From Campylobacteraceae bacterium (GTDB taxonomy: Bacteria > Campylobacterota > Campylobacteria > Campylobacterales > Sulfurovaceae), in NCBI GenBank assembly GCA_027014605.1, contig JALWDJ010000082.1:1-64000 (forward strand): a stretch of DNA of 64,000 nt, read 5' to 3'. The notes below the pieces were generated by a model. That model searched no databases and was not told where the DNA came from. It saw only the letters and a list, made by a program, of their open reading frames with translations. This document shows positions 51,758-53,944 of this stretch, one piece after another. The number at the start of each line of letters is the position of its first letter. The first letter of the stretch is position 1. The translations under genes were made by a program, and so were the position numbers.

Positions 51758-52432
51758 ATGAAACGATATGATATTGAAATTTTTAATAGATTAGACCAGA
51801 GTTTCGAACAGAACTTTATAAAATATGGAAAAGTAGTATCATATAAAAGAAGAGAGACTCCATTTTTAAATGGAGAGTTAGAAAAATTTTTTTATATTGT
51901 ACTAAAAGGAAAAATCAAAACTTATCAGATAAATTTAGAGAACTCAAAAGAACAGACTATATTTATCTATAGAACAGGAGATATGTTTGATACAATAATA
52001 CTTCTTGATGGAAAGCCACATGATATTATGTATGAGGTTTTAGAAGATATTGAGCTTTTAGAACTACCTATAGGTAAAGTTAGAGAGTGGTTAAAAACTA
52101 ATGAGCAGTTTAATAGACACTTTTTCCCATATATAGCTTCACAAATGCGTCAAACAGAGGAGTTAGCTACAGATTTATCACTTCTTCCAACATCTGAAAG
52201 ATTATCTAAGATACTTCTAAGAAATATAAATCCTAATGATAAGTATCATCAACTACTTCAAAATTTATCTAAAACAGAGATTGCAAAGCTTATAGGTACA
52301 GTTAGAAATGTAGTAGAGAGACATCTAAAAGAGTTGGAGGAGAGAGAGATTATTAAAAATCGGAGAAAAAAGATATATATTAAAGATGTGAAAAAACTTC
52401 TTCAAGAGTCAAATCAACTGCTTTTAACCTAA
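51758..52432 (+). CDS. Crp/Fnr-family transcriptional regulator
   Basis: A 224-residue regulator with a cyclic-nucleotide-binding-like sensor domain (about 20-135) and a C-terminal winged helix, LSKTEIAKLIGTVRNVVERHLKELE. No cysteine cluster is seen at the N-terminus, so it is not a classic oxygen-sensing FNR. It may respond to NO, redox or a metabolite. It follows the ABC operon by 36 nt, suggesting it controls it or the Hsp20 genes; a terminator separates it from the latter. Confidence 0.9.
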   Translation: MKRYDIEIFNRLDQSFEQNFIKYGKVVSYKRRETPFLNGELEKFFYIVLKGKIKTYQINLENSKEQTIFIYRTGDMFDTIILLDGKPHDIMYEVLEDIELLELPIGKVREWLKTNEQFNRHFFPYIASQMRQTEELATDLSLLPTSERLSKILLRNINPNDKYHQLLQNLSKTEIAKLIGTVRNVVERHLKELEEREIIKNRRKKIYIKDVKKLLQESNQLLLT

Positions 52433-52443
52433 AAAAAGATTTA

Positions 52444-52475
52444 AAATGCCACTAAAGTGGCATTTCTTTTTCCTC
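52444..52475 (+). terminator. Intrinsic terminator after the Crp/Fnr gene
   Basis: AAATGCCACT and AGTGGCATTT form a 10-bp arm pair, then a TTTCTTTTT tract. It is the strongest rho-independent signal in this half of the window and stops transcription before the Hsp20 promoter. Confidence 0.85.
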
Positions 52476-52484
52476 TTTATATCA

Positions 52485-52490
52485 TATAAT
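52485..52490 (+). promoter_or_regulatory. -10 box of the hsp20 cluster
   Basis: TATAAT 39 nt upstream of the first Hsp20 ATG, after a terminator. No heat-shock sigma-32 motif or HrcA (CIRCE) repeat is visible in the 90-nt leader. Confidence 0.55.
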
Positions 52491-52528: not shown

Positions 52529-52963
52529 ATGTTAGTAAGAAGATATGAACCATTTAATGATATTAGAAGAAGTTTTGACCTTATAAACTCTATTATAAAT
52601 AGTATTGAAGATAAAAGAGGTGAGCAAGAGCTTGTTGATTTTATACCAAAGGTAAATACTAGAGAGACAGGAGGGGCTTACCATATTGAAGTGGAGTTAC
52701 CAGGAGTTAAGAAGAGTGATGTTGATATTAAAGTTGATGGTAATATTTTAACTATCTCTGGTGAAAGAAAAGTTAGAGAAGAGGTAAAAGATGAGGATTA
52801 TCAAAAGATAGAGAGTAGATATGGAGTATTTTCTCGTTCATTTACACTTCCAGAAAAAGTTGATATTTCAAATATTGAAGCAGAATTTAATGATGGTATT
52901 TTAGAGATAACAATTCCTAAATTAAAAGTTGATACTTCAAGTAAAAAGATTGAGATTAAGTAA
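52529..52963 (+). CDS. small heat shock protein (Hsp20), cytoplasmic, first of three
   Basis: A 144-residue alpha-crystallin protein. The N-terminal helical arm leads to the core PKVNTRETGGAYHIEVELPGVKKSDVDIKVD and ends with the LEITIPK tail that binds neighbouring dimers. It holds unfolding proteins until refolded by DnaK/ClpB. It has an SD AAAAAAGGA. Tandem sHSPs in this group are not unusual, but three in a row, one exported, are. Confidence 0.95.
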   Translation: MLVRRYEPFNDIRRSFDLINSIINSIEDKRGEQELVDFIPKVNTRETGGAYHIEVELPGVKKSDVDIKVDGNILTISGERKVREEVKDEDYQKIESRYGVFSRSFTLPEKVDISNIEAEFNDGILEITIPKLKVDTSSKKIEIK

Positions 52964-52976
52964 TAAGGAGTTTAAA

Positions 52977-53417
52977 ATGGCTGTTACAAAAGATAAAATT
53001 ATTGAAAACGGAAAGAAATTAGTTAATAGTGTAGAAGAACATGTAGAGAAAGGTTTAGATATTGCAAAAGAGGCTTTGGGTAATGTAGCAAGACATCTAC
53101 CTTTAGCAAATTTTGCTAGACATAGTAGTGATACTTATGATATTGAGGTAGATTTACCAGGTGTTAAAAAAGAGGATATTGAGATAAAAATTGAAGATGA
53201 CTACTTAACTGTAAATGCTATAAGAAAAACTAAAAAAGATGTAAAAGAGGAAGATTATTATCTATGTGAGAGTAGTTATGGTTTAATCTCAAGAAGCTTT
53301 ATACTTCCAAAAGATGTAGATAGAGATAAAATATCTGCTAAATATGAAGATGGAAGATTATATATCTCTTTAGAGAAAGAAGAGACTAGAAAAGCTAGAA
53401 ATATATCAATAAAATAG
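52977..53417 (+). CDS. small heat shock protein (Hsp20), second of three
   Basis: The ORF track starts at 52929 inside the previous gene. I start at ATG 52977, which follows TAAGGAG, giving 146 residues MAVTKDKIIENGKK. The alpha-crystallin core DTYDIEVDLPGVKKEDIEIKIED is clear, but the tail (YISLEKEETRK) lacks the canonical I-P-I/V motif, so oligomer assembly may differ. It begins 13 nt after the first Hsp20. Confidence 0.93.
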   Translation: MAVTKDKIIENGKKLVNSVEEHVEKGLDIAKEALGNVARHLPLANFARHSSDTYDIEVDLPGVKKEDIEIKIEDDYLTVNAIRKTKKDVKEEDYYLCESSYGLISRSFILPKDVDRDKISAKYEDGRLYISLEKEETRKARNISIK

Positions 53418-53434: not shown

Positions 53435-53944
53435 ATGAAAAATTTAATAAAAATAGCATTAATTACTATCCCATTGAGTCTAGCTTATGCAGACTCAAAT
53501 ATTACAGGATATGATTTATTTAAAAATGACCCTCTTATCAAACATTTCCAAAAGATACAAGCTGATATGGATAAAATGTTTGAAGAGCTTCATAATAATA
53601 TGTTTAAAGAGATGAAATTAAATCCTACTCTTACAACAAAAGATTTTTCATTTTCTCCAGACACAGACTTAGTTGATAAGGGTGACAAGTATGAATTAAA
53701 GATGAATTTAGCAGGAATGGATAAAAATAGTATTAAAATAGATATTAAAGATAACTATTTAAGCGTTCAAGCTAAGAGTGAAGATAAAAAAGAGGAAAAA
53801 AAGGGTGATAAGGTAATTTTCCAAGAGAGACATTTAGGTGTAATTCAAAGAGGAATGACTCTTCCAAAAGATGCTGATGGCTCAAAATATACAAGTGATT
53901 ATACAAATGGAGTCTTAACAATTACAATTCCTAAAAAGAAATAA
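53435..53944 (+). CDS. exported Hsp20-family protein, third of three
   Basis: A 169-residue alpha-crystallin protein with an N-terminal signal peptide, MKNLIKIALITIPLSLAYADS (likely cut after AYA), so it should act in the periplasm. The core KGDKYELKMNLAGMDKNSIKIDIKD and tail LTITIPKKK are intact. It follows the second sHSP by 17 nt. Periplasmic sHSPs are rarely described. The location is inferred from the signal peptide only. Confidence 0.88.
   Translation: MKNLIKIALITIPLSLAYADSNITGYDLFKNDPLIKHFQKIQADMDKMFEELHNNMFKEMKLNPTLTTKDFSFSPDTDLVDKGDKYELKMNLAGMDKNSIKIDIKDNYLSVQAKSEDKKEEKKGDKVIFQERHLGVIQRGMTLPKDADGSKYTSDYTNGVLTITIPKKK

Follow-up and report, generated by a model that had tools for sequence, protein, structure and literature searches.

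The window, a stretch of 64,000 nucleotides from contig 82 of a 97-contig, 1.98-Mb Campylobacterota genome, carries three tandem hsp20 genes on the plus strand. The first two (p1, 52529-52963; p2, 52977-53417) encode proteins of 144 and 146 amino acids with N-termini of the ordinary cytosolic small heat shock protein (sHSP) type and C-terminal ends KKIEIK and NISIK, which contain IEI and ISI motifs, respectively. The third (p3, 53435-53944) encodes a protein of 169 amino acids that lacks such an I-x-I tail and is predicted to be exported. The genes are separated by 13 bp (p1-p2) and 17 bp (p2-p3), and we infer that they are co-transcribed as one operon. The open reading frames agree fully with the three-paralog Hsp20 cluster described in an earlier note on this DNA, and all three match the HSP20 family PF00011 (E = 5e-25, 1e-23 and 2e-20 for p1, p2 and p3).

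Directly upstream of the operon, on the same strand, lies the gene for a 224-residue transcription regulator of the Crp family (51758-52432; PF00027, E = 2e-11; PF13545, E = 6e-12), a candidate regulator of the operon with a cNMP-binding-like domain and a Crp helix-turn-helix. The iron-sulphur cysteines of FNR are absent from this protein, which has no cysteine in its 224 residues. Between the regulator gene and the hsp20 genes are a perfect 16-bp palindrome, TGCCACTAAAGTGGCA (52447-52462), which is a candidate operator, and a TATAAT (52485-52490, plus strand) that we read as a possible -10 box of the operon promoter. If this reading is correct, the centre of the palindrome would lie near -42, the position of a class II Crp activator.

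The N-terminus of p3, MKNLIKIALITIPLSLAYA/DSNITG, has the typical make-up of a Sec signal peptide (residues 1-19, 53435-53491, plus strand), with the n-region MKNLIK, a hydrophobic core and an A-Y-A motif, after which cleavage is predicted (AYA/DS). Signal peptides were called with a home-made scorer for a positive n-region, a hydrophobic core and an AxA-like site, together with reading by eye; among the 54 open reading frames of the window the scorer called ten, two of them apparently falsely, at the N-terminus of a flavoprotein and at a helix of a transporter. The same scorer found no signal peptide at any start of p1 or p2. The contrast between the third Hsp20 and the first two, as drawn in the earlier note, is therefore upheld by scorer and reading, and the signal is conserved in the orthologues of p3, whose AxA-type motifs are AYA, IQA, IHA and SHA. 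On these grounds p3 is very probably an exported protein. An uncleaved hydrophobic N-terminus would make it an inner-membrane protein whose chaperone domain faces the periplasm, or give it a lipid-proximal role like that of membrane-stabilising sHSPs. The cleavage of p3 is a prediction, and some members of its group in the tree (such as L103) have longer hydrophobic segments and weaker cleavage sites; in p3 and its orthologues, however, the AxA-type motif stands directly behind a short hydrophobic core, and we regard membrane anchoring as unlikely.

Residues 80-169 of p3 (53672-53941, plus strand) form an alpha-crystallin domain according to Pfam, AlphaFold and Foldseek. The match to PF00011 (E = 1.7e-20) scores 73 bits against a cut-off of 20.8. 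An AlphaFold model based on an alignment of 42 sequences has a mean pLDDT of 78, with low values over the signal, a helix at residues 33-58, and block means of 81-97 over the alpha-crystallin domain (near 90-97 over most of it). The top Foldseek matches listed are all sHSPs (5zs6, 6l6m and 1gme, E about 1e-6). Judged by sequence and model, p3 is a member of the Hsp20 family, and the alpha-crystallin fold of its domain is strongly indicated by the model. Its score falls below every NCBIfam equivalog cut-off. The protein ends in ITIPKKK directly behind the last beta strand and thus has no I-x-I tail (C-terminal tails were read by eye). A tail of the I-x-I/V type is typical of oligomeric sHSPs, and membership of the family is possible without it. 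Since the tail is missing, we predict that p3 forms small assemblies; its assembly and activity could be altered or reduced.

A fourth Hsp20 (p4, 176 amino acids) is encoded at a distance, on contig 5 of the host genome (G000; L004:1243-1773). It too has a signal peptide at its N-terminus and an alpha-crystallin domain in its model, so p3 is not the sole exported copy in this genome.

To place p3 within its phylum, we scanned 249 Campylobacterota genomes with PF00011, of which 74 gave a match. Nearly all loci from the scan, together with 20 loci found by translated search of genome contigs, yielded 144 distinct open reading frames. A signal peptide was present in 38 of these, all of them from Campylobacterota in a sample drawn mostly from that phylum, and the scorer found none at any allowed start of the remaining 106. 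At least one exported Hsp20 occurs in 25 of the 74 Hsp20-bearing genomes and in 13 of the 14 that belong to the family of the window. In ten orthologous operons (L005-L014; the first gene of L008 is lost at a contig edge) two cytosolic copies are likewise followed by an exported one, whose identity to p3 ranges from 55 to 99%. Furthermore, the predicted exported proteins differ in composition from their cytosolic relatives: 37 of the 38 mature sequences are free of cysteine, whereas 20 of 99 cytosolic sequences contain it, and the median pI is 8.3 as compared to 5.1. Given the 38 proteins with a signal, the 106 without and their separation in the tree, the signal of p3 is no artefact of annotation. 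An alpha-crystallin chaperone outside the cytoplasm, as the earlier note had proposed from a single gene, is thus made probable by the signal itself, its conservation in some ten operons and 38 proteins, the separate clades, the depletion of cysteine and the higher pI. In the operon at L014:3147-3527, and also at L240, the first cytosolic hsp20 carries an in-frame deletion that fuses FTLPEKVDTGNI to the C-terminal IEI tail and removes the last strands of the alpha-crystallin domain.

Two leads on export were set aside. Plasmid-borne tblastn matches to p3 in Cupriavidus and Aestuarium are apparently cytosolic Hsp20s without signal peptides. SMUL_0547, an Hsp20 of Sulfurospirillum multivorans that is 20-60x higher with tetrachloroethene, was considered as well; genome G235, which we take to be this organism from the gene position, has only a cytosolic Hsp20, with the regulator present and the palindrome upstream.

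In a tree of Hsp20 proteins, built from an alignment from which signal peptides had been removed, two groups of exported proteins are resolved: A, with 28 rows (p3 and p4 among them, support 99/96), and B, with 8 rows (99/94). The cytosolic proteins of Campylobacterota form a third group of 37 rows (99/91), and each of the three occupies one side of a branch. Because A and B stand apart from the cytosolic proteins, the tree lends no support to an origin of p3 as a recent duplicate of p1 or p2 that acquired a new leader. An AU test does not reject a single clade for the two exported groups (p = 0.395), which leaves one or two origins of exported Hsp20s. In three genomes of family f7 (L041, L053 and L057) it is a group-B gene that occupies the third place of the operon, which suggests that an exported copy has been coupled repeatedly to a cytosolic pair; common descent of these third-place copies has an AU p of 0.116 and is not excluded. 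The tails also differ between branches. Group A members without a tail are p3 and its orthologues, L015-L017, L088, L094, L100, L103 and L104, and a group A sub-branch (L105-L113) has Met-rich N-terminal helices and, in most members, long Lys/Ser-rich tails; group B tails are of the IPI or a related kind. The N-terminal helices are strikingly rich in methionine in L106, L110, L111, L113 and L114, for example MQMKQMEQMRRQMDAMF; such helices may bind metal or touch the membrane.

Relatives of the Crp-family regulator were found near hsp20 genes at about 38 loci in several families. We searched for the palindrome as the consensus TGCnACnWWnGTnGCA, with at least 15 of 16 positions matched, in the 200 bp that precede the first hsp20 gene. 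It was present at 33 of 55 loci in regulator-positive genomes and at 0 of 36 in regulator-negative genomes (Fisher p = 2e-10, ignoring the kinship of genomes), and a downstream control gave 0 of 91 loci. Across 41 genomes of the family the pattern occurred 93 times, compared with 7 times for the reversed control. The host genome has five exact sites, which lie before the hsp20 operon, 65 bp before dnaK (L247), 95 bp before a yfdX (L130), 80 bp before a DUF1931 gene (L129) and inside a gene (L237); a site with one mismatch (L132) precedes hdeD and an amino-acid permease gene. Similarly, in relatives the palindrome precedes dnaK, clpB (with ctpA divergent), htpX, yfdX and hdeD-like genes, as well as the exported hsp20s L100, L114, L216 and L217, several of the neighbouring genes being named by sequence reading. 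YfdX was found in 30 genomes, 22 of which are among the 44 that bear the regulator. From this co-occurrence we consider it quite likely that the regulator acts through the palindrome as a pair, by putative binding, and together they seem to mark out a proteostasis regulon in Campylobacterota that comprises hsp20, dnaK, clpB, htpX, yfdX, hdeD and DUF1931 genes. The suggestion that the cluster is tuned to several compartments gains support in this form, as one operon with a candidate operator that also stands before other periplasmic stress proteins. The p4 gene has no palindrome, nor do 11 of 13 stand-alone exported hsp20s in regulator-positive genomes, so co-regulation is no general property of exported Hsp20s.

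The regulatory half of this explanation has a competitor in which the palindrome ends transcription of the regulator gene and is no operator. In the window a T-rich run follows the palindrome, so a terminator role for the regulator gene is also conceivable. The sequence itself is conserved across families beyond what a hairpin would need, however, many loci have no T-run behind it, and it stands before dnaK, yfdX, htpX and clpB away from the regulator gene; a terminator in place of an operator is accordingly improbable. Two further palindromes deserve mention. In the regulator-negative genus g9, TGCTACCTAAGTAGCA lies about 60 bp ahead of leuA (L140-L143, the four loci read, and other loci in most of the genus); we took it as unrelated, and it is probably a different site or a leader element. 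A related but distinct palindrome, TGCGACTTTAGTCGCA, occurs in several relatives (L199, L200, L203 and L204) and is perhaps the site of a second regulator with shifted specificity.

In relatives among the Campylobacterota, HrcA and HspR control dnaK and other chaperones. To our knowledge, the palindrome before dnaK in the host genome is neither an HrcA nor an HspR element. No HrcA was found at E 1e-10 in the family of the window, and the matches in 195 of the 249 genomes are partial ones that never reach the model cut-off in the phylum. We found no description in the literature of a Crp-family heat-shock regulator with the palindrome TGCnACnWWnGTnGCA. In function the nearest counterpart is the tLST/LHR island, whose gene set of two sHsp20s, YfdX1/2, HdeD and the HtpX-like orf15 (PMC8290217) overlaps the genes near the palindrome here. 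The tLST genes form an island under the MerR-like Orf1, whereas yfdX, hdeD and dnaK of the host genome are dispersed on other contigs, apparently under other regulation, of Crp type; a contiguous island of clpG/clpK, sHsp20, yfdX, hdeD and a MerR-like orf1 was not found in this genome. In addition, the sHsp20s of tLST are discussed with the disaggregase ClpG and not as exported proteins.

Among bacterial sHSPs such as IbpA/IbpB of E. coli and Hsp18 of Clostridium, p1 and p2 are ordinary members. With these proteins p3 has in common the alpha-crystallin domain, the predicted fold and a helical N-terminal arm; it differs from them in its Sec signal, the absence of cysteine and of an I-x-I tail, and its separate exported clade. 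In its proposed role, the holding of unfolded proteins without ATP, p3 resembles the periplasmic chaperones HdeA/HdeB, Spy, Skp and SurA of E. coli, which are of unrelated sequence; HSP20 is the sole Pfam match of p3, which places it outside the HdeA/HdeB family. ATP-independent chaperone activity has been measured for YfdX, which is probably periplasmic (PMC4941729). A survey of proteostasis in acidophiles lists Hsp20 as a stress holdase, separate from the periplasmic chaperones (PMC10490939). Periplasmic or extracytoplasmic sHSP or Hsp20 was not found as a phrase in the literature covered, which leaves out most subscription papers.

Taken together, p3 is likely a Sec-exported, ATP-independent periplasmic holdase that is made together with cytosolic Hsp20s under a Crp-family regulator; we judge the holdase function by itself to be about as likely. 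We propose that under denaturing stress the regulator would switch on chaperones of both compartments at TGCnACnWWnGTnGCA, the palindrome that also stands before dnaK, yfdX and hdeD in the host genome and, in relatives, before clpB, htpX and other exported hsp20s. In the cytosol, p1 and p2 would hold clients for DnaK and ClpB. The p3 protein would be exported unfolded by Sec, trimmed after AYA, fold, and dimerise through its alpha-crystallin domain; the dimer and its helical N-terminal arm would then bind periplasmic and outer-membrane proteins that unfold under heat, acid or other denaturing stress. Such clients may be held without ATP until they refold spontaneously or are cut by proteases of the HtrA type, CtpA or HtpX. 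The host genome encodes an HtrA-like protein that scores below the curated DegP cut-off.

It is also conceivable that p3 is exported and serves, as a dedicated factor with an alpha-crystallin fold, in the biogenesis of outer-membrane proteins or of redox enzymes in the periplasm, and not as a stress holdase. The scarcity of palindromes at stand-alone exported copies and the varied neighbourhoods of those genes would fit such a role, but p3 itself sits in a candidate stress operon and the four other exported copies noted above have the palindrome; we consider this function doubtful. Least probable by far is a cytosolic p3 translated from a downstream start, which the earlier note had named as a finding that would speak against it: residues 45 and 48 are encoded by ATG, but ahead of residue 45 there are just two start codons, the ATG at 53435, which has AAAGGA as a good ribosome site upstream, and, at codon 14, a TTG that lacks a Shine-Dalgarno sequence, and a start at M45 or later would remove conserved residues in the segment that follows the conserved signal.

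In the usual description, sHSPs are holdases of the cytosol (or of eukaryotic organelles) that pass their clients to ATP-driven Hsp70 and Hsp100. A branch of exported members across a phylum would have to work without ATP and without these partners, and through it what an sHSP can do alone would become testable in vivo. The novelty of p3 among Hsp20s lies in its compartment, in the distinct exported clade to which it belongs and in its control circuit. Hsp20s, whose study has normally centred on the cytoplasm, probably protect the ATP-free periplasm as well, and the regulator and its palindrome offer a concrete, checkable proteostasis regulon over two compartments. The earlier note was right on the sequence and is probably right on its meaning. 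To a wider proposal we give even chances, namely that Campylobacterota have an ancient alpha-crystallin branch dedicated to the periplasm and an undescribed Crp-type regulator that, through a single palindrome, induces quality control both in the cytosol (DnaK, ClpB, Hsp20) and in the envelope (exported Hsp20, YfdX, HtpX, HdeD, CtpA), replacing HrcA in families without it.

Several exported hsp20 genes have suggestive neighbours. At L015:3151-4387, L016 and L017 a stand-alone copy lies near an HdeD-like (DUF308) gene, divergently in L015 and L016, with permease and ClC-type genes close by, a stress neighbourhood. At L101:1115-2792 and L102 an exported hsp20 lies directly 5' of genes that we read as encoding a peroxiredoxin-like protein and a Fur/PerR-like regulator, hinting that these copies are under oxidative-stress control.
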